Below are positions 2,422 to 60,195 of a stretch of 64,000 nucleotides of DNA, one piece after another. The translations under genes and the position numbers were made by a program. The first letter of the stretch is position 1. Each line of letters opens with the position of its first letter. The notes under the pieces were generated by a model. The model was given only the letters and a program-made list of their open reading frames with translations. It searched no databases and was not told the DNA's origin. Origin of the DNA: an uncultured Erysipelotrichaceae bacterium (GTDB lineage Bacteria; Bacillota_I; Bacilli_A; Erysipelotrichales; Erysipelotrichaceae); NCBI GenBank assembly GCA_947167125.1, contig CAMVGT010000003.1, forward strand, positions 41,207-105,206, in the 5' to 3' direction.

Positions 2422-2765
2422 GTCTGACATTCCGGATTCTGCTCATTCTTGCGGCAATATGGGCATTCCGTTTTGTGATTATTGAAATCCGCAAATCGAA
2501 ACTGCAGATCACCGACAGTCTTTCGTGGTTTTTCATCACGCTTGTTTTTATTCTGCTGGCACTGTTTCCGCAGATTGCGGAACATGCGGCAGAACTTCTG
2601 CATATCCAGTCGCCGGTCAATCTGGTGTATCTGGTTGTCATCGCCATTCTCATTTTCCGCATATTCCTGCTGACTGTCCGTGTGTCCCAGCTTGATAACA
2701 AGGTCAAGGAATTGACGCAGCGGCTGGCAATTGATGAAACCGATGAAGAGGATGAAAAAAAATGA
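2418..2765 (+). CDS. DUF2304-like small membrane protein
   Basis: Two to three TM segments and a charged C-terminus; 4-bp overlap with the upstream DPM-like GT, a common pairing. Confidence 0.65.
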   Translation: MSLTFRILLILAAIWAFRFVIIEIRKSKLQITDSLSWFFITLVFILLALFPQIAEHAAELLHIQSPVNLVYLVVIAILIFRIFLLTVRVSQLDNKVKELTQRLAIDETDEEDEKK

Positions 2766-3676
2766 GAGAGTATGATGATGTGACACTGAAGCGTCTGCAG
2801 AGCATTGAACTGATGATCGTCAATGATTTCAAGCGTCTGTGCGCAAAACATGATATTCCGTATTTTGCCTTCGCGGGCAGCGGCATCGGCGCATTGCGTC
2901 ATAAAGGATTCATTCCGTGGGATGATGATATCGATATCGGCTTCCTGCGTGAGGATTATGAAGAATTCATCCATTACGCGGATCTTGAAATGTCCGATAA
3001 ATATACGGTCATGAATGTTGAACATGATCCGAATTATCCTCTGATGACCACAAGGTGGATGTTAAAGGATACGGTATTTGTTGAAGAAGCATTCCGTGAT
3101 GTGAAATGCGAACTGGGCATTTTCCTGGATCTTTATGCATTTGATCAGGTCGCTGATGATCCCAAATTAAGAAAGAAGCAGGGATGGGAGACATGGTTCT
3201 ACAGCCATCTTCTGATTCTGCGCTCGATTCCTTTCCCTGTTCTGATGATGAGCAAGTGGAAGGCAAAGGTGATTCATGCGGCAACTGCGGCTGCCTATGG
3301 CTTACTGACTGTGACAGGTGTTTCCACTAAGAAACTTGCCGCTAAAGCCAAGGCTGCGGCAGTGCGCTATAACAACGGACCGAAAACAAAGCAGGTCAAC
3401 TATTTTTTTGATACAGTTCCGGATCTGGATTTATGGGATTATGATGAAATCTTCCCGCTGGTGGAACTGCCGTTTGAAAATACGACACTCACTTTCCCGA
3501 ATAATCAGGACCGCTATCTCAGAAAACTGTATGGGGACTATATGACCCTTCCGCCGGTGGAAAAGCGGAAGAATCATTTCCCGCATGCGCTTGACTTCGG
3601 CATTTACAGAGATGTACCTCTGGAGGATTTAAGAAATCCGGATCTCTATATTGATCCGGCAGATCTGAAACGATGA
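2762..3676 (+). CDS. LicD-family phosphotransferase
   Basis: AFAGSGIGALRHKGFIPWDDDIDIGFLREDYEEF: LicD signature. Confidence 0.88.
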   Translation: MREYDDVTLKRLQSIELMIVNDFKRLCAKHDIPYFAFAGSGIGALRHKGFIPWDDDIDIGFLREDYEEFIHYADLEMSDKYTVMNVEHDPNYPLMTTRWMLKDTVFVEEAFRDVKCELGIFLDLYAFDQVADDPKLRKKQGWETWFYSHLLILRSIPFPVLMMSKWKAKVIHAATAAAYGLLTVTGVSTKKLAAKAKAAAVRYNNGPKTKQVNYFFDTVPDLDLWDYDEIFPLVELPFENTTLTFPNNQDRYLRKLYGDYMTLPPVEKRKNHFPHALDFGIYRDVPLEDLRNPDLYIDPADLKR

Positions 3677-21931: not shown

Positions 21932-23218
21932 ATGGCTGTCGTTAATAAAGAAAAATATCTGGGGAGAATTATCGATCGGAATGTGAAGAGGTATCTTCAG
22001 ATTTTCGGAGCGGTTTGTATTGAAGGACCTAAATGGTGCGGAAAAACGTGGACGTCTTCTTTTCACTGCAGCAGTGAAATTATGATCGGTTCACCTGAGA
22101 ATAACTTCCAGAACAGACAGCTTGCCGAACTTTCCCCATCCCTTATTCTGGAGGGGGATGTCCCCCGGCTGATTGATGAATGGCAGGAGGTGCCTTCTCT
22201 TTGGGATGCGGTCAGATATGAAGTTGACCGCAGAGGGCAGAAAGCACAATTCATTCTGACAGGATCTTCCACACCGAACCGCAAGGGAGTAATGCACAGC
22301 GGTGCCGGCAGGATCGGAAAACTTCGCATGCGGACAATGTCTCTTTATGAGTCAGGTGATTCATCTGGAAAGGTGTCTTTGTCTAATCTTTGCAATGGGA
22401 TACTGACACCGGCAATGACAGGTGAAGTGTCACTGAAGGAATTAATATATCTGGCTGTCAGAGGCGGATGGCCGGGGAATCTCGGAGTGTCAGAGGCTGA
22501 TGCACAGCTGCTTCCGGAATCGTATATAAACGCGGTTCTTGATGATGATTTGCGGCGGATTGATGATGTGAAACGGGACACTCATAAAGTGAGTCTGCTT
22601 TTGCGGTCACTTGCGCGGAATGAATGTACAACAGCTTCCATCAATAAGATAGCGAATGATATCAGTGAATATGATGGCGGGCAGGTTGACCGAACAACAG
22701 CTGCAGAGTATATTGCGGTGCTTTCGAGATTGTTTTTGTTTGACAATCAGCTTCCGTTTTCCAGTAATATCCGTTCGTCGGTCAGGGTCAAACAGACAGA
22801 AAAGAGACACTTCTGCGATCCGGCGCTTGCATGTGCCCTGCTGAAGGCGACACCTGCAAAATTGCTGAATGACCTGAATACATTTGGCTTTATATTTGAA
22901 GCAATGTGCGAACGGGATCTCAGAATTTATGCGGAATCCTTCGGCGCTGAACTGCTGCATTATCAGGATTACAAAAACCGTGAAATTGACGCAGTTATTG
23001 AGCTTGAGGATGGCAGATGGTGTGCTTTCGAAATCAAACTCGGTACTAATCAGATTGACAGAGCTGCTGCAGATCTGATCGCGCTGCGCGACAGTATTGC
23101 GGCTGAAAAAGGAGGTGTTCCTCCTTCGGTACTCTGTGTTATATGCGGTATGAGCAATGCGGCTTATGTAAGGCCGGATGGCGTGTTTGTGGTGCCGGTT
23201 ACTGCTTTGAAACCATAA
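21932..23218 (+). CDS. AAA_14/DUF4143 ATPase (paralog 1)
   Basis: Walker A EGPKWCGKTWTS; PRLIDEWQEVPSLWDAVR; TGSSTP; C-terminal REIDAVIELEDGRWCAFEIKLG (PD-(D/E)xK-like). Confidence 0.92.
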   Translation: MAVVNKEKYLGRIIDRNVKRYLQIFGAVCIEGPKWCGKTWTSSFHCSSEIMIGSPENNFQNRQLAELSPSLILEGDVPRLIDEWQEVPSLWDAVRYEVDRRGQKAQFILTGSSTPNRKGVMHSGAGRIGKLRMRTMSLYESGDSSGKVSLSNLCNGILTPAMTGEVSLKELIYLAVRGGWPGNLGVSEADAQLLPESYINAVLDDDLRRIDDVKRDTHKVSLLLRSLARNECTTASINKIANDISEYDGGQVDRTTAAEYIAVLSRLFLFDNQLPFSSNIRSSVRVKQTEKRHFCDPALACALLKATPAKLLNDLNTFGFIFEAMCERDLRIYAESFGAELLHYQDYKNREIDAVIELEDGRWCAFEIKLGTNQIDRAAADLIALRDSIAAEKGGVPPSVLCVICGMSNAAYVRPDGVFVVPVTALKP

Positions 23219-23841
23219 GGAAGGACAGGATGTGAATGCATTCTGTCTTTTTTGAGCCCTCTTCCTGTACGAATCAGAATGCACAATCTTCAGAAATATT
23301 TACGGATGATGTAAAATGGAAAAGTGAAATTTATGGACCTGTCAGGATTAACCGCAAAAACAGAACTTTTGAAAAAAGCGCTGCACATCTGGGCTGTACA
23401 GTATCGTTTTGTCATTCCCCGGGAAATTCTGAAAATGTACATTCATAAATATATGCACGAGCGCATGAATATTGCCCGTTATGGCAGAAGATATTTTGAT
23501 CCTGCTGTGAATGAGGAATATGAAAAGTGGCTGACTTACCGCAAAAGCGGAACCATGCAGAAACCAAACCGCGATCTCATCTGGCTTTCCGAAACGGAAA
23601 AGCTGGATCTCAGTCAGACGGAAGACTGCGATTATGTTCTGCTTGTTTCAAAAGGATGCCATACCTATGCGGCTCTGGGAGATGTCAATCTGAAGGAAGG
23701 CGATGTCATCTATTTTGATCATGACCGCCGTGATTCCTACGGAAACCGTTCCAATCCGGTTCTGAAACCTGATTTTTCCTATAACACATTGAGAAGCTTC
23801 AATTATATCGGTCGCTGTTTCGCGGTGCGCAAGAGCCTGCT
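23123..23841. repeat. Long direct repeat, copy 1 (partner 27830-28547)
   Basis: About 719 bp, near-identical: 3' end of DUF4143 gene, intergenic region, and 5' part of a GT2 gene. Confidence 0.95.
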
Positions 23842-23905
23842 CCCGGAGAATAACCAAATGAAAGCGTTGAAGACCGTATGGATTTCGGCGCTTTTTCTTT
23901 TTTAA
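23333..23905 (+). pseudogene. Truncated 5' copy of the GT2 gene at 28039, fused to LCP-downstream sequence
   Basis: Identical protein to 28039 up to FAVRKSLL, then PENNQMKALKTVW, which is a translation of the LCP 3'-end/terminator sequence. Confidence 0.92.
23841..23901. repeat. Duplicate of the LCP stop-codon/terminator segment (partner 21730-21790)
   Basis: tcccggagaataaccaaatgaaagcgttgaagaccgtatgg(a/t)ttcggcgctttttctttt; one mismatch over 61 bp. Confidence 0.93.
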
Positions 23906-27924: not shown

Positions 27925-28547
27925 AGGAAGGACAGGATGTGAATGCATTCTGTCTTTTTGAGCCCTCTTCCTGTACGAATCAGAATGCACAATCTTCAGA
28001 AATATTTACGGATGATGTAAAATGGAAAAGTGAAATTTATGGACCTGTCAGGATTAACCGCAAAAACAGAACTTTTGAAAAAAGCGCTGCACATCTGGGC
28101 TGTACAGTATCGTTTTGTCATTCCCCGGGAAATTCTGAAAATGTACATTCATAAATATATGCACGAGCGCATGAATATTGCCCGTTATGGCAGAAGATAT
28201 TTTGATCCTGCTGTGAATGAGGAATATGAAAAGTGGCTGACTTACCGCAAAAGCGGAACCATGCAGAAACCAAACCGCGATCTCATCTGGCTTTCCGAAA
28301 CGGAAAAGCTGGATCTCAGTCAGACGGAAGACTGCGATTATGTTCTGCTTGTTTCAAAAGGATGCCATACCTATGCGGCTCTGGGAGATGTCAATCTGAA
28401 GGAAGGCGATGTCATCTATTTTGATCATGACCGCCGTGATTCCTACGGAAACCGTTCCAATCCGGTTCTGAAACCTGATTTTTCCTATAACACATTGAGA
28501 AGCTTCAATTATATCGGCCGCTGTTTCGCGGTGCGCAAGAGCCTGCT
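27830..28547. repeat. Long direct repeat, copy 2 (partner 23123-23841)
   Basis: About 718 bp; a 1-nt indel and few substitutions relative to copy 1. Confidence 0.95.
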
Positions 28548-29613
28548 GAAGCAGTTTGATCAGACGGAATGGAATCCGTATTACTGGCTGCTGAAACTGA
28601 GCGATCAGAATCTTAACATCTGCCATATCAGCACGATTGCCTACAGCGATCAGAATCCGATGGTATGCGAAGAAGAAACACTGAGAAGATATCTCGCTGA
28701 AAGCAATACAGAGGCGGATGTGACAGTCAACCCGGACGGAGTCAGCTGCACTGTGAAATATCCGGTTCAGGATGAACCGCTGGTTTCCATCCTGATTCCG
28801 ACAAAGGACGGCGTTTCTGTACTGAAGAGATGCGTTGATTCCATTTATGAAAAATCAACCTACCGGAATTTTGAAATTATTATTGTGGATAACGGAAGCG
28901 AAATGCCGGAAACAGCCGCTTACCTGGAAGATATGACAAAGGCGCATGACAATCTGCAGACTGTGCGGATTGATGTTCCGTTCAATTTCTCCTATCTCAA
29001 TAACTGCGCGGCGGAACATGCGTCCGGAGACTATCTTGTACTGTTAAACAACGACACGGAAATCATCACGCCTGACTGGCTGGAACAGATGCTCGGCTAT
29101 GCGGCAAGGGAAAATGTGGGAAGTGTCGGTGTCAAACTCTATTACGAAGACAATACCATCCAGCATGGCGGCGTCATTGTGGGCAAAGGCGGAGCGGCAG
29201 CTCATCGCTGGTACCGCTGCGAACATGATCAGAAAGGATATCTCTATACTCTGGAAGCGCCGAATGATGTGTCCTGCTGTACAGCTGCGTGTCTGATGAC
29301 AAGCAGAAAATGCTGGGATGAGATGTGCGGAATGAATGAGGAGCTGACCGTTCAGTTCAATGATGTGGATTACGGTCTGCGTCTGTTGAAGGCAGGATAT
29401 TTCAATGTATTCCTTCCTTCAGTTGAACTGTATCACTATGAATCCAAATCAAGAGGAATTGACAAGGATCAGAAAGCAGTGAAGCGCTTCTTTGAAGAAG
29501 TGAACTGGTTCAAGGAGAAATACGGGGATTATATCGAACATGATCCGTTCTATAACGACGGCTTCGACAAGAATTATGATTACAAGCTGATCGCCGGAAC
29601 GGGATCCAACTGA
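28039..29613 (+). CDS. GT2 glycosyltransferase (rhamnosyltransferase-like), full-length copy
   Basis: VSILIPTKDGVSVLKRCVDSIYEKSTYRNFEIIIVDNGS...LVLLNNDTEIITPDWLEQMLGYA...QFNDVDYGLRL. Confidence 0.9.
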   Translation: MDLSGLTAKTELLKKALHIWAVQYRFVIPREILKMYIHKYMHERMNIARYGRRYFDPAVNEEYEKWLTYRKSGTMQKPNRDLIWLSETEKLDLSQTEDCDYVLLVSKGCHTYAALGDVNLKEGDVIYFDHDRRDSYGNRSNPVLKPDFSYNTLRSFNYIGRCFAVRKSLLKQFDQTEWNPYYWLLKLSDQNLNICHISTIAYSDQNPMVCEEETLRRYLAESNTEADVTVNPDGVSCTVKYPVQDEPLVSILIPTKDGVSVLKRCVDSIYEKSTYRNFEIIIVDNGSEMPETAAYLEDMTKAHDNLQTVRIDVPFNFSYLNNCAAEHASGDYLVLLNNDTEIITPDWLEQMLGYAARENVGSVGVKLYYEDNTIQHGGVIVGKGGAAAHRWYRCEHDQKGYLYTLEAPNDVSCCTAACLMTSRKCWDEMCGMNEELTVQFNDVDYGLRLLKAGYFNVFLPSVELYHYESKSRGIDKDQKAVKRFFEEVNWFKEKYGDYIEHDPFYNDGFDKNYDYKLIAGTGSN

Positions 29614-42202: not shown

Positions 42203-42294
42203 TGAAAAGTGTATATTAAAAGTGTTGAAAAGTGTATATCAAAACGCCTGAAAAGTGTATATTGAAATGCTTGAAAAGTGTATATCAAAGTGCT
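42203..42294. repeat. Tandem 23-bp repeat array (4 units) upstream of the DUF4143 ATPase gene
   Basis: tgaaaagtgtatat(t/c)(a/g)aaa core starts at 42203, 42226, 42249 and 42272: exactly 23-bp spacing. Confidence 0.95.
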
Positions 42295-42299
42295 ATTGT
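42271..42299 (+). promoter_or_regulatory. Predicted promoter overlapping the last repeat unit
   Basis: TTGAAA (42271-42276), 17-bp spacer, TATTGT (42294-42299). Confidence 0.5.
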
Positions 42300-42316
42300 C
42301 AACTTGGAGGATGATT

Positions 42317-43606
42317 ATGGCTCTTACAAAAGAAGGTTACATGCGTCGTCTGATCGATGATAAGATCGAAAGATATTTGAATGTTTTCGGAGCGGTGTCC
42401 ATTGAAGGACCGAAATGGTGCGGAAAAACCTGGACCAGTCTTAATCATGCAAACAGTGCGGTATATATGACGCAGCGTCAATACTTAAATCTGGCGCGAA
42501 TTGATCCGAAATATATTTTCATGGCTGAACGTCCGCAGCTGATCGATGAATGGCAGATTGTTCCTTCCATATGGGACGCTGTACGGAATGAGTGTGATCA
42601 GGATCATAATAAGGGCAAATTTATCCTGACGGGTTCAACTACGCTTAATAGCGGAGATGGCGATAATGAAAAAGAAGTGTACCACTCGGGGACAGGCAGG
42701 ATTGCGACACTCAGAATGGACCCGATGAGTCTTTTTGAATCGAATGAATCGACTGGTGAAGCATCCATTATGCAGATGATAAATGGTGATATAAAAGAAG
42801 GTTATGTCAGAAAAATTGATCTGAAAGAGATTGCAAAACTGATCGTCCGGGGCGGCTGGCCTGAAAATATCGATATGCCTGATGCGGATATCGGTGTCAT
42901 ACCGGAAAGCTACATTGAGGCAATCATAAAAAAGGATATGCATGAGATGCAGGATAAAAAAAGAAATCCCGAAAAGATGCGTATGCTGATCCGGTCGCTG
43001 GCGCGTAATGAATCAACGATTGTGGGAGATAAAACGTTAATACGTGATATTGAGGAATATGATACCGGGGATGAACTGATCAAAAGCAGGATAACGATAG
43101 CTGATTATTTGAGTGTACTGGACAGTTTATATCTGACTGCCAATCAGGAGGCATACAGTTTAAATTACCGTTCCTCGTCCAGAGTTGGAAAATCTGCGAA
43201 GAGACATCTTGTTGATCCATCACTTTGCTGCGCTGCGCTTGGACTGACAGTGGATAAACTGATGTATGATCATGAAACATTCGGACTTCTGTTCGAATCA
43301 TTGGCTGAAAGAGATTTGAGAATCTACGCAGAGTATCTTGGCGGACATCTTTATCATTTCCGTGATAATGTTTCCGGGGACGAAGTTGATGCATTGATTG
43401 AATTTAAAGATGGTTCATATGCGGCATTTGAAATTAAGCTGAGTGACGGCAGTATACAGGAAGCAGTCAGCAGTCTGACTAAATTTTATGAGCGTGTAAA
43501 AAAGAAGCCTGTTTTTATGTGTGTTATTGTAGGTCATCTTGATGCAGTTATGAGAGATCCGGATACCGGGATCTTCATAGTACCGATTACATCTTTAAAA
43601 CCGTAA
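42317..43606 (+). CDS. AAA_14/DUF4143 ATPase (paralog 2)
   Basis: EGPKWCGKTWTSLNHA; PQLIDEWQIVPSIWDAVR; TGSTT; C-terminal DEVDALIEFKDGSYAAFEIKLS. ATG 42317 preceded by ggagg. Confidence 0.92.
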   Translation: MALTKEGYMRRLIDDKIERYLNVFGAVSIEGPKWCGKTWTSLNHANSAVYMTQRQYLNLARIDPKYIFMAERPQLIDEWQIVPSIWDAVRNECDQDHNKGKFILTGSTTLNSGDGDNEKEVYHSGTGRIATLRMDPMSLFESNESTGEASIMQMINGDIKEGYVRKIDLKEIAKLIVRGGWPENIDMPDADIGVIPESYIEAIIKKDMHEMQDKKRNPEKMRMLIRSLARNESTIVGDKTLIRDIEEYDTGDELIKSRITIADYLSVLDSLYLTANQEAYSLNYRSSSRVGKSAKRHLVDPSLCCAALGLTVDKLMYDHETFGLLFESLAERDLRIYAEYLGGHLYHFRDNVSGDEVDALIEFKDGSYAAFEIKLSDGSIQEAVSSLTKFYERVKKKPVFMCVIVGHLDAVMRDPDTGIFIVPITSLKP

Positions 43607-45748: not shown

Positions 45749-45863
45749 ATTGAGAACTTGACTAAGGAATCAAGGAGAGTTCTCAATGAATGCTTGCTTT
45801 CAATTATCTGGTGAGTATACTATTAATTGAGAACTTGGCTAAGGACTAAGGTAACTTCTCAAT
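45749..45863. repeat. Duplicated inverted-repeat operator flanking the promoter of the third DUF4143 ATPase gene
   Basis: attgagaacttgactaaggaatcaaggagagttctcaatg (45749-45788) and attgagaacttggctaaggactaaggtaacttctcaatg (45826-45864); TTGAGAAC/GTTCTCAA arms. Confidence 0.9.
45794..45821 (+). promoter_or_regulatory. Predicted promoter between the two inverted repeats
   Basis: TTGCTT (45794-45799), 16-bp spacer, TATACT (45816-45821). Confidence 0.5.
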
Positions 45864-45873
45864 GGAGTCAATC

Positions 45874-47175
45874 ATGGAGATAAAGCGTGGCAGGTATTTA
45901 AAACAGCTGGTTTCTTATATGTGGGATGGTCAGGTAAAGGTGGTAACCGGGATACGCAGGTGTGGAAAATCCTATATTCTGAATACCCTGTTCCGAAAGT
46001 ATCTTTATGAGAATGGTGTCCCGGAAGATCACATTCTGAGCTATGAACTTGATTTGGCAAAAGATATCCGGTACCGCAGCCCTCTTGAGCTGACTGATGC
46101 TGTTCGTTCTTTAATGGAAGGCAAAACGGAACAGTATTATCTGTTTGTCGATGAAATACAGATGTCAGATCAGGTTCCTAATCCTTATAATCCTGCAGGT
46201 AAGCCGATCACTTTTTATGATGCATTGAATGATTTGAATTCTTTACCTAATCTGGATATATATGTGACAGGCTCCAATTCGAAAATGCTTTCCAGTGACA
46301 TTCTTACGGAATTCAGGGGAAGAAGTGATGAAATCCGGATGCGTCCGCTGAGTTTTTCGGAATATTATTCGGCTGTCGGAGGCGATAAGACGGATGCGTT
46401 TGATGAGTATGCATTTTACGGCGGTATGCCGCTGATTCTATCCAGGCCGGATGAAACTTCAAAGATGAATTATCTGAAATCCTTGTTTTCTGAAGTGTAT
46501 CTGAAGGATATTGTGGAACGAAAAAAAATCAAGCGGCAGGATATTTTGTCTGCTGTAGTGGACTTATTATGTTCATCAGTCGGATCACTGACGAATCCGA
46601 ACAATATCTCAAATTCTCTGAACTCTATGCAGAAGCTGAGTAAAGAGAATACAGTCTCATCAAATACTGTCAAAAGCTATATCGACCAATTAATCGATGC
46701 GTATTTATTCGAAGAATGCCGCCGCTATGATGTGAAGGGAAAGAATTATTTCAATTATCCCAATAAGTACTACTGCGATGATCTGGGTTTGAGAAATGCG
46801 CGAATCGGATTCCGCCAGCAGGAAATGACCCATATCATGGAAAATATCATATACAACGACCTTCGGGTCCGCGGATGCGAAGTGGATGCCGGTGTCGTTT
46901 ACGGCAGTGAAAAGAATAAATCCGGCAATTATGCGGAAGTGGCAAGAGAAATTGATTTTATTGCGACAAAAGGACTAAAGAAGATATATATCCAGTCTGC
47001 ATATGCACTTGAAACAGAAGAAAAAACGGCAGCGGAAAACAAGCCGTTTGCGCTGACCGGTGATTCTTTTGAAAAAATCATTGTGCGGCATGATATCCGC
47101 AAGCGCTGGTATGATGACCGCGGTGTACTTAACATCGGTATTATTGATTTTCTTCTGGATGAGTCAATCATTTAA
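45874..47175 (+). CDS. AAA_14/DUF4143 ATPase (paralog 3, different subfamily)
   Basis: VVTGIRRCGKSYILNTLFRKYL; YYLFVDEIQM; TGSNSKMLSSDILTEFRGRSDEIRMRPLSFSEYY; REIDFIATKG. Confidence 0.93.
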   Translation: MEIKRGRYLKQLVSYMWDGQVKVVTGIRRCGKSYILNTLFRKYLYENGVPEDHILSYELDLAKDIRYRSPLELTDAVRSLMEGKTEQYYLFVDEIQMSDQVPNPYNPAGKPITFYDALNDLNSLPNLDIYVTGSNSKMLSSDILTEFRGRSDEIRMRPLSFSEYYSAVGGDKTDAFDEYAFYGGMPLILSRPDETSKMNYLKSLFSEVYLKDIVERKKIKRQDILSAVVDLLCSSVGSLTNPNNISNSLNSMQKLSKENTVSSNTVKSYIDQLIDAYLFEECRRYDVKGKNYFNYPNKYYCDDLGLRNARIGFRQQEMTHIMENIIYNDLRVRGCEVDAGVVYGSEKNKSGNYAEVAREIDFIATKGLKKIYIQSAYALETEEKTAAENKPFALTGDSFEKIIVRHDIRKRWYDDRGVLNIGIIDFLLDESII

Positions 47176-53058: not shown

Positions 53059-53071
53059 GTCAGAGTGACAG

Positions 53072-53104
53072 AAGGCATCGGATGAAATTCCGGTGCCTTT
53101 TTCT
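53072..53104 (+). terminator. Terminator after nusG
   Basis: aggcatcgga...tccggtgccttttt. Confidence 0.8.
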
Positions 53105-53220: not shown

Positions 53221-55221
53221 ATGAAGAAGAGAAGAAGTACGGTATGGCATCTGGTGTATTTCACGCCGCTGATGTTAATGATGTTTACAGTGCCTGTTCA
53301 GGCATATATCGATCCATCCGTCATGACCTATGCGATTCAGGCAGTCGCGGGTATGGCAATTGCGATCGGTGCTGTATTGGGTATCTATTGGAGAAAGATA
53401 CGCAGGGCGTTTCTTTCTAAGTTCCATCTGGAACAGAAGATGAGCAGGAATTATGAATCGGATGATCTGGTATTCCATGATCCTGTATCCGGTGAAGATG
53501 TAAAGCCGGATCTCTCAAAAGCCATCGTGAAGGAAAAGACAAAAGAAGAAGAGAAACCGAAGGAAAAGTGGCTCAAAGGATTTATTCCTGCCGTCTGTCT
53601 TTCCCTCGGCCTGAGCTTCCTGTTTACTGTATACGGTCCTTTGGAACTGTATTTCAACAATCAGGCGGATTTCCTGTATGACTTCTCTGCCCAGGTTCCT
53701 GTTCTTGCGGTCATGTTCATAGGATTCTTTGCGGTCATGGTCATTGCGTTTGCGGCAGGAAGGTTCATCTTTGAGCAGCTTTATGAAGTGATGCTCGCGG
53801 CCGGTGCTGTTCTGTTCATCTGTTCATGGATTCAGGGAAGCTTCCTGGTTTCCCACATGCCGCCGATGGACGGGACAATGATTGACTGGGGATTGTATGC
53901 AAGGGATGAGCTTGTTTCTTTGATCCTGTGGGTTATTGTGATTGTACTGATCGCATTGATTTACCGTTTCTTTGAAAGAAACGGATTCCATGCGTTTGTC
54001 AAAGGCTTAAGCGCATTGCTTGGAATGACTCTGTTTGTGTCTTTGATGCATATGGGCATTTCCACAAAAGGATTTGCGGGCAAGGAAGAAACAGCAGTGA
54101 CATTTGACGGGCAGCTGGAAATGTCATCAGAGCACAATGCGGTGATTTTGGTGCTGGACGCGGTGGACGGAAAACTGTTTGCGGATACAGTGGCCTCGGA
54201 TAACAAATATTCTGAATATTTCAAAGACTTCACGATTTATCCGGATACGCTTGCGGCTTATCCGTTTACGGAATATTCCATTCCGTTTATTCTCAGCGGG
54301 AAATGGAATGAGAATACGGAAGATTTCAATACCTTTGAGACAAAGGCGATGAATGAATCTCCTCTGTTTGAAAGACTGGAAAAGGATGGCTATGAAGTTT
54401 CTTTATATGAAGATTCTTTGACCTATGGGGATGAAGCATTCAAAGAGAAGGTAAAGAACATCCATACAGCCGGGACAATGATTGCCCACAAATCCACATT
54501 CATCAAACAGATGGTGAAGATGATATGGTTCAAATACGCGCCTTTTACAATGAAGAGAACCTTCCAGCCGAGCGTCTTTGAACTGAACAGTTCCGTGACC
54601 TATGATGACGGTTCGATTGCCTTCAATTACAGCGACTTCATGTGGCGTGATTATATGAGATCTTCTGCTGTTACAGCAGCAGAAAAGAAACAGTTCAAAT
54701 TCATTCATACCGAAGGCGCGCATGTGCCGTTTGATCTGGATGAAATGGGAAATACGATTCCGACTGACAGCGGAACCTATGTCATGAAGATGAAAGGCTC
54801 AATTGAGCTGACCAATGAATATCTGCAGATGTTAAAGGATGCGGGTGTCTATGACAATACAGCCATTATCATCATGGCTGACCATGGATATAACTATGCC
54901 CAGGAGGATTCATACGGACCTGCTTCAAGAAGACAGAATGCATTATTGATGGCAAAAGGTTTCAATGAGACAAACGGAACGGTGCAGATTTCTGAGAAGC
55001 CTGTTTCCTTTGATGATCTGCAGAAAGGCTATGCAAACCTTCTGGACGGACATAAAGGAAATGAGATCTTTGATTTTGTTTCAGATGAAAGAGACAGCAG
55101 AAGATTCCTGCATTATGTCTATCTTGAAGAATATCATCTGAATGAATATGAATGGAACGGCAGGGCATATGACATGGATGCGGGCAAAGCAACCGGCAAT
55201 GTCTATGAACTGCAGAAGTGA
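53221..55221 (+). CDS. Sulfatase-like membrane protein
   Basis: N-terminal TMs; NAVILVLDAVDGKLFADTV; IHTEGAHVPFD; TAIIIMADHGYNY. Confidence 0.8.
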   Translation: MKKRRSTVWHLVYFTPLMLMMFTVPVQAYIDPSVMTYAIQAVAGMAIAIGAVLGIYWRKIRRAFLSKFHLEQKMSRNYESDDLVFHDPVSGEDVKPDLSKAIVKEKTKEEEKPKEKWLKGFIPAVCLSLGLSFLFTVYGPLELYFNNQADFLYDFSAQVPVLAVMFIGFFAVMVIAFAAGRFIFEQLYEVMLAAGAVLFICSWIQGSFLVSHMPPMDGTMIDWGLYARDELVSLILWVIVIVLIALIYRFFERNGFHAFVKGLSALLGMTLFVSLMHMGISTKGFAGKEETAVTFDGQLEMSSEHNAVILVLDAVDGKLFADTVASDNKYSEYFKDFTIYPDTLAAYPFTEYSIPFILSGKWNENTEDFNTFETKAMNESPLFERLEKDGYEVSLYEDSLTYGDEAFKEKVKNIHTAGTMIAHKSTFIKQMVKMIWFKYAPFTMKRTFQPSVFELNSSVTYDDGSIAFNYSDFMWRDYMRSSAVTAAEKKQFKFIHTEGAHVPFDLDEMGNTIPTDSGTYVMKMKGSIELTNEYLQMLKDAGVYDNTAIIIMADHGYNYAQEDSYGPASRRQNALLMAKGFNETNGTVQISEKPVSFDDLQKGYANLLDGHKGNEIFDFVSDERDSRRFLHYVYLEEYHLNEYEWNGRAYDMDAGKATGNVYELQK

Positions 55222-55235
55222 AAGGAGGGAATGCG

Positions 55236-57338
55236 ATGTCTGCGTTTGCGGCTTTTCTTGGCTCAATCATGAGCGTTTGCTACGGGATATTTAAGAATTA
55301 CGGCATTGCGATTATCCTGTTCACACTGATCACAAAAGTGATTCTGTTCCCTCTGTCTTTATGGCTGCAGAAGAATTCCATCAAGATGGTGAGGATGCAG
55401 CCGGAGATCAACAACATCAAGGTGAAATATTACGGCGACAAGGACCGGATTGCGGATGAGCAGTCCAGCCTTTATAAAAAAGAGAAATACAATGCCTTTG
55501 CGTCATTGATTCCTCTGGCAATCCAGATTGTTCTCCTGCTTGGTGTTGTGAATGTCATTTACCATCCGATCACTTATATTCTCAAAGCGCCTCAGGAAGT
55601 CAGCGACCGCTTTACGGAAATTGTCCTTGCGGAAAATCCGGATCTGGATCCGGAATCCAATTCCCTGCAGCTGATGATTGTGGATGATATTCAGGATGCG
55701 GAGAACGGACATATTGAAAGCTATCTTGCATTGGCTGAGCAGTATCCGTCTCTTCCTGTGGAAGAGACGGTGGAAAAGATTCAGTCTTTCCGCATGAGTT
55801 TCTTAGGACTCAATCTCAGCTGGATCGCTTCTGTCAAAGGCGGGATTTCAATTCTCGCACCGCTGCTTGCGGCACTGTCCGCTTTGTTATTAAGCGTTGC
55901 GGAAAATGCGGTCAATGTTCTTCAGCATGAAGAATCCGTCTTCAGCAAATACGGTATGCTGGCTTTCTCAGTACTGCTGTCGCTGTATCTTGGCTTCTAT
56001 GTTCCTTCAGGCGTTGCCTTATACTGGGTGGCGAGCAATCTCTTTGCGATTCTGCAGCAGTATATTCTGAATGCTTTGATCAATCCGAAGAAATATGTGG
56101 ATTATGAAGCACTTGAGAAGAGCAGAAAAGCATTGGAAGAGATTTCGGATTCTAAAGGAAAGAAACTGAGCAGACCGCTGGCTAAAAGAGTAAAAGCGGA
56201 TTATAAACGCTTCTTCTCGATTGCCAACAAGCATCTTGTCTTCTATTCGGAATCCAACGGTTTTTATAAATACTATGCCGGAATGATTGAATATATTCTG
56301 AAATATACTGACATTCCGATTCATTACATCACATCCGATCCGGATGATTCCATCTTTGAGATGGCAAAGACAAATGATCAGATCAAGCCGTATTTCATCG
56401 ATTCCAATACATTGATCACACTCATGATGAAGATGGACGCGGATGTTGTCGCAATGACAATGCCGGACCTTGAGACCTATCAGATCAAGAGAAGCTATAT
56501 CCGCAAGGATATTGAATATATCAATCTCTGCCATGGCATCGGTTCCTACAACCTTACGTTCAGAAAAGGCGCGGTTGATCATTTCGATACTGTTTTCCTG
56601 GCAGGAAAGCATCAGGTGGAAGAAATCCGCAAGCAGGAAGCAGTCAATCATCTTCCTGCCAAGGTTCTTGTGGAGGACGGTTATCCGCTGCTGGATGAAA
56701 TGATCGCTTCCTATGAAGCATCTGAAAAACCTGTGCATGAAAAGAAAGTGGTACTGATCGCTCCTTCCTGGCAGAAGGGAAATGTTGTGGAAAGCTGTCT
56801 GGAAGATCTGCTGGATGCATTAAAGGATCATAACTACCATGTGATTGTCAGACCCCATCCCCAGCATGTCCGCCATAACGGCGATCAGATGAAGGCACTG
56901 CAGGTGAAGTATCAGGACAATCCGGATATTGAAATCCAGACCGACTTCACTTCCACAAATACCGTCTTTGAAGCGGATATCATGATCAGCGACTGGTCGA
57001 GTGTTGCCTATGAATTCGCATTTACAACAAACAAGCCGGTTCTCTTTATCAACACACCGATGAAGGTGATGAATCCGGAATATCAGAAGATTGATACCGT
57101 ACCGTTTGATATCTGGACAAGAGATGTCATCGGCATGTCTCTGGATCCTGCTCTGATTGATCAGGCACCGGATAAGATTGCGTATCTTCTGGAACACAGC
57201 AATGATTATGAAGAGACCATTGAGAATCTGAAACATGAATATGTCTTCAATCTCGGAAACAGTTCAGAGATCGGTGCAAGATATCTGATTGATGCAGTAT
57301 TCCGTCATATTGAAGAAAGAAGATCCAATGAGGAATGA
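55236..57338 (+). CDS. Fusion: YidC/Oxa1-like insertase domain + CDP-glycerol glycerophosphotransferase-like domain
   Basis: N-terminal NYGIAIILFTLITKVILFPLSLWLQKNSIKMVRMQPEINNIKVKYYGDKDRIADEQSSLYKKEKYN and C-terminal INLCHGIGSYNLTFRKGAVDHFDTVFLAG...VLIAPSWQKGNVV...HVIVRPHPQHV...IMISDWSSVAYEFAFTTNKPVLFINTP in one ORF. Confidence 0.9.
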   Translation: MSAFAAFLGSIMSVCYGIFKNYGIAIILFTLITKVILFPLSLWLQKNSIKMVRMQPEINNIKVKYYGDKDRIADEQSSLYKKEKYNAFASLIPLAIQIVLLLGVVNVIYHPITYILKAPQEVSDRFTEIVLAENPDLDPESNSLQLMIVDDIQDAENGHIESYLALAEQYPSLPVEETVEKIQSFRMSFLGLNLSWIASVKGGISILAPLLAALSALLLSVAENAVNVLQHEESVFSKYGMLAFSVLLSLYLGFYVPSGVALYWVASNLFAILQQYILNALINPKKYVDYEALEKSRKALEEISDSKGKKLSRPLAKRVKADYKRFFSIANKHLVFYSESNGFYKYYAGMIEYILKYTDIPIHYITSDPDDSIFEMAKTNDQIKPYFIDSNTLITLMMKMDADVVAMTMPDLETYQIKRSYIRKDIEYINLCHGIGSYNLTFRKGAVDHFDTVFLAGKHQVEEIRKQEAVNHLPAKVLVEDGYPLLDEMIASYEASEKPVHEKKVVLIAPSWQKGNVVESCLEDLLDALKDHNYHVIVRPHPQHVRHNGDQMKALQVKYQDNPDIEIQTDFTSTNTVFEADIMISDWSSVAYEFAFTTNKPVLFINTPMKVMNPEYQKIDTVPFDIWTRDVIGMSLDPALIDQAPDKIAYLLEHSNDYEETIENLKHEYVFNLGNSSEIGARYLIDAVFRHIEERRSNEE

Positions 57339-57561
57339 AGGAGCAGTGAAAGCTGTTCCTTTTTTCTGGTGTCGGACTGATTTGAATCGTGCAGTTTCGA
57401 GGAACTGAATGTTTATGATGGTCTCCGGTAAATTACTTTTACCAATCTATTGAAATTAAGTCCCCACTGGTGCTGACGAATCCGGAAATGTTTTTTGGAA
57501 ATTCCTTAAGTTGTGCATCTCTTCGCAGAAAAAACACATAACTGTGTTAAATTATTAGATT

Positions 57562-60195
57562 GTGATGGGGAGGACAGGAATGAAGAAGACGTTTGCGATT
57601 ATTCATACAGTATTTGTTTCATTCTTTTTTATTCTGTCCATATTGATCGGACTGTCTGCGCAGTGGATGCTTGACACATGGCCGAATCTGAAGATGGAAG
57701 AAGTGATGTTCCAGTTCCAGCAGGGACTCGGCGGTACCGGCGGAGACATGATCATGCAGTTTATGATTCACTGCGGCTTCCCGGTGATTGCGGTACTGAT
57801 CATGTTGATTGTCCTGCTGGTTTCCATGAAGGGAAAACCGAAGAGAAAACTGCGTGCTTCGATGGTCATTATTTCACTGGCTTCTTTGATTTCTGCAGGT
57901 GCTGCGGCTTATACAAGAGTCGGGGTTGGTGAATATATTGCGGCGCAGTCAACCAATTCGGAATTCATCATGGATCATTATGCAGATCCTGCCACAACAC
58001 CGATGACATTCCCTTCAAAAAAGAGGAATCTGATTTATATCTTCCTGGAATCGATGGAGACAACCTATGCCGATACGGATAACGGCGGAGGATTTGATTA
58101 TAACTGCATTCCTGAACTGACAGAACTTGCAAAGGAGAATGAAGATTTCTCAGGAAATGATGAAAAGCTGAATGGAGGCATTTCTCTTCCTTATACAACA
58201 TGGACAATGGGTGCGATGTTCGGTCAGACAAGCGGACTGCCTCTGCAGACAAGCGTTGACCGCAATGACATGGATACCCAGGAATCCTTCTTCCCGGATA
58301 TCACCACACTGGGAAATGTGCTGGAAAACAACGGATACAACAATGTGCTTTTATTAGGTTCTGATGCCAAATTCGGCGGAAGAAAGACCTATTTCACCCA
58401 GCATGGCAATTATGAGATCCGCGATTACTACTGGGCTGCGGAAAACGGCTATGTTCCGGCAGGACATTATGTCTGGTGGGGAATGGAAGATACCTATCTC
58501 TTCAACATGGCAAAAAGCACACTGGAAGAATATGCGGCGAAGGATGAACCGTTCAACATGACCATGTTAACGGTGGATACGCATTTTGAAGATGGATATG
58601 TATGCAGTCTGTGCGGGAATGATTATGAAGAACAGTATGCCAATGTCATGGCATGTTCTTCAAAGCAGATCATTGAATTCATTAATTGGTGCAAGGAACA
58701 GGACTGGTATGAAAATACATCCATTATCCTGACAGGCGACCATCCGACGATGGATGTGGATTTCTGCAATGATATTTCTGCGGATTATACAAGAAAAGTC
58801 TATACATGCTATATGAATTCAGCGGTACAGCCGGTGGATCCGACTTTAACAAGAAGCTTTTCCACACTGGATGAATTCCCGACTACACTGGCATCTCTAG
58901 GTGTTTATATTGAAGGCGACCGTTTAGGTCTGGGCACGAATCTTTTCTCTTCAAAGAAAACACTGACGGAAGAAATGGGTGTTTCGGAAGAAACACTTGA
59001 GATTTCCAAGAAATCCAAATTCATGGAAGCTTTATCCGGTGTTGATCTTACCAGCAAGGACTTACTGACAACCGGTCATATGAAAGCGGATGCGACTGTC
59101 AAAGTGCTTGGCTATGATGAAGAAAGCGAAACACTTTCGATTGCGGTGGATGACATCCTGGCGGAAGACGGACCGGTTTACCATGTCATGGCTGTGACGG
59201 AAACAGAAGAAGGCGAAATGATTTACCGGGCTTCTGCACAGAAGGATGGTTCCTGGAAAGCAGATCTGCATGTGCCGAAGGATGAGATGGATACAACCGG
59301 ACTGAGGATTGTGATTTCGGAAAAGAACGGGAAGCCGGGTTCCGGCATTGCCGGTACAACGGTATTCACATACAGCGGAGCTGACCTGATGTGGTTAGGT
59401 GCTGTACAGAATGATCCGGCTGCTTATCTTGATACATTGGCAACACTGGACAGAGATAAATATGCAATCTTCATTACATTAAAGGATAATGCCGTCAACG
59501 GCATTACCGATGAGATTCAGGAAAGCTTATTCAATCTTGGAACAGAGATTGATTTAAGAGGACAGCAGGACTATTATTGGTTCGCTGTCATTTCCGGTGA
59601 CAGGGTTCATGAAGAAGCGAGCCCATGGTTCCTGGAAAGATACGGAGTCACATCCGGCGGATATCCGTATATTGTGGTATCTTCCGCTTCCACAGCACCT
59701 GTATATATTGCCAACAGGTATTACTGGGGATATGAACAGTACAGCCCGAGCGCCAAGGGAATGAATATTGTTGTCTGGGATCAGGAAAACGGCGAGATGG
59801 TTACCAACACCTTTTTCGATACCAGATGGGGTGTTCCCAAAGCGGATGTGAGAATTACACAGCTGAATGAAGAAACCGGACTGATGACACTGCGTATCAA
59901 TAACATCACAGGTATTCGTGATGAGGTTGCGGATGTCAGAGTGACAGTCTTTGATACAATGCATCCGGACAGACAGTACCGCTATCAGCTGGAGAATACG
60001 GAAAACTACGGATGGGCGGAGAATATCGATATTTCTGATATCGATGTTACCGACTGTGTGATCAAGATTGATGTGCTGAACACATCCGGTGAGTATTCGC
60101 ATCTTCCGGACATCAAAGGCAATTTAAAAGAATATCAGGCATCGCAGTCTTCTGTGTGGACGGATGAAGAAACAGAAGAGACTGCGTCAAATTAA
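57562..60195 (+). CDS. LTA synthase/phosphoglycerol transferase-like sulfatase with C-terminal ILEI-like region (start may be 57580)
   Basis: IYIFLESMETTYAD...LPYTTWTMGAMFGQTSGLPL (catalytic Thr region)...ILTGDHPTMD; C-terminal GMNIVVWDQENGEMVTNTFFDT. Confidence 0.85.
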   Translation: MMGRTGMKKTFAIIHTVFVSFFFILSILIGLSAQWMLDTWPNLKMEEVMFQFQQGLGGTGGDMIMQFMIHCGFPVIAVLIMLIVLLVSMKGKPKRKLRASMVIISLASLISAGAAAYTRVGVGEYIAAQSTNSEFIMDHYADPATTPMTFPSKKRNLIYIFLESMETTYADTDNGGGFDYNCIPELTELAKENEDFSGNDEKLNGGISLPYTTWTMGAMFGQTSGLPLQTSVDRNDMDTQESFFPDITTLGNVLENNGYNNVLLLGSDAKFGGRKTYFTQHGNYEIRDYYWAAENGYVPAGHYVWWGMEDTYLFNMAKSTLEEYAAKDEPFNMTMLTVDTHFEDGYVCSLCGNDYEEQYANVMACSSKQIIEFINWCKEQDWYENTSIILTGDHPTMDVDFCNDISADYTRKVYTCYMNSAVQPVDPTLTRSFSTLDEFPTTLASLGVYIEGDRLGLGTNLFSSKKTLTEEMGVSEETLEISKKSKFMEALSGVDLTSKDLLTTGHMKADATVKVLGYDEESETLSIAVDDILAEDGPVYHVMAVTETEEGEMIYRASAQKDGSWKADLHVPKDEMDTTGLRIVISEKNGKPGSGIAGTTVFTYSGADLMWLGAVQNDPAAYLDTLATLDRDKYAIFITLKDNAVNGITDEIQESLFNLGTEIDLRGQQDYYWFAVISGDRVHEEASPWFLERYGVTSGGYPYIVVSSASTAPVYIANRYYWGYEQYSPSAKGMNIVVWDQENGEMVTNTFFDTRWGVPKADVRITQLNEETGLMTLRINNITGIRDEVADVRVTVFDTMHPDRQYRYQLENTENYGWAENIDISDIDVTDCVIKIDVLNTSGEYSHLPDIKGNLKEYQASQSSVWTDEETEETASN

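Follow-up and report, generated by a model that had tools for sequence, protein, structure and literature searches.

The gene at positions 55,236 to 57,338 of the window (the whole 64,000-nucleotide stretch of DNA that we analysed) encodes a genuine, conserved fusion of a YidC/Oxa1 domain to a divergent TagF-like domain. Sequence comparisons give good support to its association with AlkP-superfamily genes, with a small membrane module (YIDPS), and with genes for activated donors. Because the fusion is found beside genes for activated choline or aminophosphonate, its probable role is to assist in placing these groups on the cell surface. As to how, we tentatively propose that the fusion forms the core, within the membrane, of a system for decorating the surface that would work by "load – cross – transfer"; we give this reading a little less than an even chance.

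Two domains in one open reading frame

The fusion starts with an ATG at 55,236 and has no internal stop in 700 codons. Both halves match their Pfam families above the cut-offs: 60KD_IMP covers amino acids 22–279 (118.9 bits, E = 2.9e-34; cut-off 35 bits) and Glyphos_transf covers amino acids 357–605 (48.4 bits, E = 8.9e-13; cut-off 22.1 bits). The NCBIfam model TIGR03592 (yidC_oxa1_cterm) also matches, with 109.7 bits against a cut-off of 84.3. These results bear out the first-pass annotation, which had read the gene as a single-ORF fusion of a YidC/Oxa1-like insertase to a CDP-glycerol glycerophosphotransferase domain. The features of the gene are as follows (with the evidence for each in parentheses):

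55,221–55,228, + strand: ribosome-binding site AAAGGAGG, which overlaps the stop codon of the AlkP gene and lies just 5′ of the ATG of the fusion (sequence)
55,236–57,338, + strand: YidC–TagF-like fusion gene, 700 amino acids (open frame, Pfam, TIGR03592, AlphaFold)
55,236–56,099, + strand: YidC/Oxa1 domain, amino acids 1–288, with five predicted membrane helices (Pfam, TIGR03592, alignment, AlphaFold)
55,563–55,841, + strand: predicted extracytoplasmic insertion between TM2 and TM3, about amino acids 110–202 (comparison with relatives, AlphaFold)
56,226–57,335, + strand: predicted cytosolic TagF-like CDP/CMP-dependent transferase domain, amino acids 331–700 (Pfam, motif alignment, AlphaFold, structural match)
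56,532–56,534, + strand: motif H433 of the TagF half (alignment)
56,850–56,861, + strand: motif RPHP, amino acids 539–542, of the TagF half (alignment)
56,988–57,002, + strand: motif SDWSS, amino acids 585–589, of the TagF half (alignment)

In the YidC half, K34 (codon 55,335–55,337) lies in the TM1 groove and aligns with the conserved groove arginine of solved YidCs. K34 is invariant in 65 of 65 aligned fusions, and the PxxxQ of TM2 and the YW..N of TM5 are likewise kept in all 65. In the TagF half, H433, R539-P-H541-P, and D586-W-S588 are invariant across the 65 aligned sequences. The TagF-like domain is nevertheless divergent: it scores 48 bits, versus 244 bits for the genome's other Glyphos_transf protein.

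An AlphaFold model of the fusion, built from 65 relatives, has a mean pLDDT of 91.6 and a pTM of 0.61, so each domain is confidently modelled and the mutual orientation of the YidC and TagF halves is unsettled. The best structural match for the TagF half is the TagF crystal structure 3l7j (E = 1.8e-10). The Foldseek matches that were listed are led by the TagF half; the YidC half resembles solved YidCs by sequence profile, and its helix layout and high pLDDT are consistent with YidC. The modelled helix order is the classical YidC layout, which would place the transferase in the cytosol and the insertion outside. The extracytoplasmic insertion, which had also been noticed at the outset, is present here and is optional, since many relatives do without it. 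The fusions come in two size classes, of about 690–710 amino acids with the insertion and about 632–640 amino acids without it. (One genome, G004, has a second copy of the fusion, at L037:10250-12949, that lacks the insertion and has a tail of about 200 amino acids of acidic Glu/Thr/Lys repeats.)

The fusion is widespread and patchy

How widespread the fusion is could not be told from the window alone. The domain search and census proposed in the first-pass annotation settle this. A scan of a species-representative collection gave at least 541 relatives, and the best 80 of these (the top scorers, not a random sample) are, every one, single-ORF fusions. The fusion is thus present in at least 80 species, mostly gut Bacillota, with a patchy distribution. 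Carriers among the best 80 include gut Erysipelotrichaceae ("Solobacterium sp." MAGs), Lachnospiraceae, Oscillospiraceae, and MAGs labelled Saccharibacteria. Some carriers are cultured, such as the isolate Roseburia inulinivorans DSM 16841. Within the genus of the host, 20 of 70 genomes have the full-length fusion, some with an additional copy; in a sample of 392 genomes from the phylum around the host, only the host itself has it. The MAGs labelled Candidatus Saccharibacteria (L098, L100, L101, L102, and L118) are either misbinned or evidence of a true transfer into this reduced phylum.

The two halves share a history. Pairwise distances for the YidC and TagF halves are correlated (Mantel r = 0.62; the largest value in 1000 permutations was 0.24), so the halves have travelled together. 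The chance that two genes were joined by a hidden frameshift or a chimeric assembly, which had been named at the outset as what could undo the fusion, is negligible. We found nothing in its favour, and against it stand no fewer than 80 full-length copies, each in a single ORF and independent of the others, some of them from isolates, with congruent halves. The 20 same-genus genomes and the single ORFs at the best 80 loci rule out such an artefact.

We also dropped a viral or plasmid origin. A scan of viral contigs for the fusion gave zero matches, and no plasmid record contained most of the query. Three human-faecal contigs labelled "Bacteriophage sp." (MT838376.1, MT836947.1, and MT836777.1) do contain most or all of the fusion; they are probably mislabelled bacterial DNA.

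The fused domain is not the housekeeping YidC

The host has its housekeeping yidC elsewhere, in the order rnpA-yidC-jag (G000:C20). The fused YidC lies outside this context and outside the housekeeping clade, so it is not the housekeeping orthologue. In a tree, the fused YidC domains form one clade (support 100/99) apart from the housekeeping YidCs. (This tree disregards the row YA_L162, which had been excised at a wrong position, and long branches make its placement of the fused domains relative to the YidC-AlkP form, described below, tentative.) The separate rnpA-yidC-jag copy led us to reject the idea that the fusion replaces the housekeeping YidC. We also rejected a recent duplication of the host's yidC: the clades are separate, and the groove residue is lysine rather than asparagine. 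One YidC paper describes the positive charge in the groove as strictly conserved (PMC8920935). The host and 17 relatives (L002 and L018–L034; Erysipelotrichales) have asparagine at this site in their housekeeping YidCs.

A two-gene operon with an AlkP-superfamily enzyme

Upstream of the fusion, and 14 nt away, is a gene for an AlkP-superfamily membrane protein. The features of this operon are:

53,070–53,101, + strand: intrinsic-terminator-like site after nusG, at the upstream border of the operon (13-pair stem and T tail)
53,221–55,221, + strand: AlkP-superfamily (sulfatase/LtaS/EptA-like) putative membrane phosphotransferase, 666 amino acids, with an N-terminal YIDPS membrane module (Pfam, profile, fold)
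53,304–53,411, + strand: YIDPSVMTYAIQ... (YIDPS) module within the AlkP gene (single match in the 64-kb window)
57,337–57,362, + strand: intrinsic-terminator-like site just 3′ of the fusion, at the downstream border (fold of -18.9 kcal/mol, z = -4.75)

The terminator-like sites enclose the AlkP gene and the fusion only, which points to a two-gene operon. The first-pass annotation had placed the fusion in an apparent operon with a sulfatase-like gene and two LTA-synthase-like genes. The sulfatase-like gene is the AlkP gene and stays in the operon, but the other two (LTA-synthase/OpgB-like genes at 57,577 and 60,220) lie beyond the second terminator-like site.

The AlkP partner matches Pfam's Sulfatase family (27.2 bits; cut-off 25), and its profile matches LtaS. 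Its predicted structure (pLDDT 86.5) resembles the folds of PbgA, MCR-1, EptA, and sulfatases. The active-site residues D313, T350, H501, D554, and H555 are invariant. The protein has a membrane N-terminus, a threonine nucleophile, and metal ligands, as is required of a lipid head-group transferase.

Elsewhere in the window, the first ~180 amino acids of a glycosyltransferase gene are duplicated (23,324–23,905 and 28,030–29,613). The two copies flank a segment with a phosphosugar regulator, a PTS EIIC, and a beta-glucosidase, which resembles a duplication-mediated insertion. Three AAA-ATPase/DUF4143-like genes (identified by eye) are dispersed over the polysaccharide region (21,932–23,218, 42,278–43,606, and 45,862–47,175).

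Partner genes across relatives

Among the 80 best loci, 57 have an AlkP gene within 8 kb or in the same ORF. The YIDPS module is near 42 of the 50 well-flanked fusion loci and near 0 of 21 control regions; it forms a stand-alone membrane protein of ~90 amino acids at 50 loci and is inside a longer ORF at 17. A LicC/PntC-like nucleotidyltransferase is found at 50 of the 80 loci (30 of the 41 that are fully flanked), and some activation gene is found at 31 of those 41. PEP mutase and AEP transaminase each occur at 10 of the 80 loci, phosphonopyruvate decarboxylase at 8, and choline kinase at 7. In 20 control regions, we found neither the nucleotidyltransferase nor PEP mutase, AEP transaminase, phosphonopyruvate decarboxylase, or choline kinase; these controls (270 kb in total, from the same genus) are few and are unmatched for polysaccharide regions. 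A nearby activation gene or AlkP is absent at about a quarter of the well-flanked loci. (At 18 of the 80 loci, a small S26 signal-peptidase-like gene lies less than 8 kb from the fusion, for example at L079:14467-14958.)

In some relatives, all three domains are in one protein, and in more than one order. Two proteins have the order YidC-TagF-AlkP (L111, 1420 amino acids, and L112, 1359 amino acids; both checked with Pfam). In L105 (1192 amino acids; Pfam) the order is AlkP-YidC-TagF, and L106 (1180 amino acids) has the same layout, as judged by phmmer and length. There is also an alternative pairing: three same-genus genomes without the fusion have a YIDPG-TagF gene followed by a YidC-AlkP gene. 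(The reading of this arrangement is complete in two of the three.) The YidC-TagF and YidC-AlkP systems co-occur in 0 of 70 genomes; a sample of three genomes is too small to test exclusivity statistically. The YidC-AlkP form has asparagine at the groove position, which implies that a charged groove is not essential to all versions.

The YidC part could be a mere anchor or scaffold that holds the transferase beside AlkP while a separate flippase moves the lipids. We consider this unlikely, if still a serious competitor. The flexible pairing of domains fits a scaffold, as does the missing groove charge in the YidC-AlkP version. But the YidC core (K34, PxxxQ, and YW..N) is complete in all 65 aligned fusions, which would be needless for a bare anchor.

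Alternatively, the YidC domain might be a dedicated insertase or chaperone for AlkP or the YIDPS protein, with the transferase tethered to it for assembly. The fusion retains the motifs of YidC and its C1 hairpin in the cytosol, and the partners encoded in the same operon are multi-TM or small membrane proteins. We nevertheless find it improbable: an enzyme stands where the C-terminal tail should be, the host already has a housekeeping YidC, and the covalent AlkP-YidC fusions make it unlikely that AlkP is inserted by its own YidC.

Donor-synthesis genes near the fusion

The nearby donor genes differ between loci. In R. inulinivorans DSM 16841, the fusion is the first gene of an AEP-phosphonate operon, followed by genes for the YIDPS protein, AEP transaminase, PEP mutase/cytidylyltransferase, and phosphonopyruvate decarboxylase. 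In the 22 kb that we read around this fusion, AlkP is absent. Two genomes (G008 and G035) have a BCCT-type transporter, LicC, and a wHTH-NTP-choline kinase protein directly beside AlkP and the fusion. The genome of the window has the same BCCT-LicC-LicA (wHTH-NTP-choline kinase) operon, which shares a contig with the fusion (C3:31791-35822) but is some 60 kb distant from it; a search of this genome for PEP mutase gave zero matches. (A LicD-like gene at 2,762–3,676 of the window, judged by eye, could consume the same CDP-choline.) Two other genomes (G004 and G022), which gave no match to PEP mutase, have beside the fusion a nucleotidyltransferase with a fused CobD-like decarboxylase/aminotransferase; this is a possible route to CDP-ethanolamine. 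The theme common to the donor loci is CDP- or CMP-activated phospho- or phosphono-groups that bear an amine.

TagD-like cytidylyltransferase genes adjoin only a few relatives, and the donor genes are mostly of the LicC/PntC type. At two loci (L036:2329-3723 and L039:16650-17954), a TagD-like cytidylyltransferase is fused to a Gfo/Idh-type dehydrogenase, beside a class-V-type aminotransferase; together these may make a CDP-amino-glycerol.

These genes bear on whether the fusion is a membrane-tethered poly(glycerol-phosphate) teichoic-acid polymerase that uses CDP-glycerol as its donor. TagF is both the Pfam family and the best structural match, and some relatives do have the nearby TagD-like/dehydrogenase fusion. 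But the domain belongs to a divergent subfamily (48 versus 244 bits), and the neighbouring genes chiefly make CDP-choline or CMP-AEP. Divergence and gene context thus weaken the ordinary TagF reading, and we judge it quite improbable. The first-pass annotation had called this half a TagB/TagF polymerase; the domain family holds, while the label of polymerase is doubtful.

A proposed mechanism for surface decoration

Our preferred reading, load – cross – transfer, has four steps. First, dedicated enzymes would produce an activated amine-bearing head group. The donor here is probably CDP-choline, given the BCCT-LicC-LicA operon; in relatives it would be CMP-aminoethylphosphonate or probably CDP-ethanolamine. 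Second, the TagF-like domain would shift the head group from the nucleotide to a lipid acceptor at the inner face of the membrane. Third, the YidC fold would offer the lipid product a thinned and hydrophilic route across to the outer face. Fourth, the LtaS/EptA-like AlkP partner would take the head group off the lipid and pass it to a glycan or polymer outside the cell. The small YIDPS membrane protein, which is fused to AlkP here, would be the fourth part of the machinery, alongside the transferase, the YidC fold, and AlkP.

We favour this reading because the transferase is predicted to be inside, the YidC fold in the membrane, and AlkP outside, and because these are joined in several orders. 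Three points here are inferred rather than read from sequence: which donor the window strain uses, which lipid accepts the head group, and, most of all, that the YidC domain has a part in lipid crossing. For lipid crossing by the fused domain we argue by analogy with E. coli YidC, Oxa1, and Get1, all of which scramble phospholipids in vitro (PMC10491306). A lipid donor for the transfer of the head group is similarly suggested by ChoP pathways that differ from Lic-1, among them that of PptA, for which lipid-linked ChoP is described as the donor (PMC10434233). It had been suggested earlier that the insertase domain couples polymer synthesis to membrane insertion. A synthesis step that is tied to the membrane fits our data, but the glycerol-polymer part of that idea is unsupported.

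More broadly, evolution may have diverted the YidC fold away from inserting proteins and made it a conduit devoted to lipids. It would then be one of four parts of a machine, together with the activation enzymes, the cytosolic transferase, and the extracellular AlkP transferase with the YIDPS protein. This machine would carry out the step after CMP-AEP or CDP-choline in many gut Bacillota. We regard this as a real possibility that we would not bet on. If it is true, then many gut Bacillota share an undescribed route by which their surfaces come to carry choline, phosphonate, or other zwitterionic groups of this kind. Zwitterionic surface groups matter in host mimicry and immune recognition.

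Comparison with known systems

The component families are known, but their combination, and its link to phosphonate and choline activation, appear to be undescribed. A literature search that reached few subscription papers found no description of a YidC/glycerophosphotransferase fusion. Automatic labels such as "YidC" or "CDP-glycerol transferase" conceal the fusion protein.

With the YidC/Oxa1/Alb3 insertases (YidC2/SpoIIIJ; PF02096), the fusion shares the five-TM core (as predicted), the C1 hairpin, the P-x3-Q and YW..N motifs, and a positive groove residue (K34). Unlike them, it has a 370-amino-acid enzyme as its C-terminal tail, and its genomic partners are genes for decorating glycans or lipids. 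The fusion offers a test case for whether lipid scrambling by the Oxa1 family is ever a dedicated biological function. With TagF and TagB (PF04464), it shares the GT-B-like fold and the H, RPHP, and SDxSS motifs. Unlike them, it has a weak score for the family and an attached polytopic membrane domain, and its neighbours supply CDP-choline or CMP-AEP.

The Pnt (phosphonyl tailoring) pathway shares with our system the enzymes that form CMP-AEP, which, with PEP mutase, adjoin the fusion in R. inulinivorans and other relatives. Rice et al. (2019; PMC6697681) described the formation of CMP-AEP and called the later Pnt steps enigmatic. They named LicD-like transferases in the gene neighbourhoods, and YidC is nowhere mentioned. 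With the fusion, these steps gain a specific candidate for the transferase, and one that occurs in a cultured species.

The window strain also shares the LicA/LicC supply of the Lic-1 system (LicA/B/C/D), which is encoded in its genome, and the AlkP partner has the intact metal and threonine site of the PptA/EptA/LtaS-type transferases. What would set our system apart from these is that transfer takes place in two stages, loading in the cytosol and transfer outside the cell, with the YidC fold as the physical link between them.
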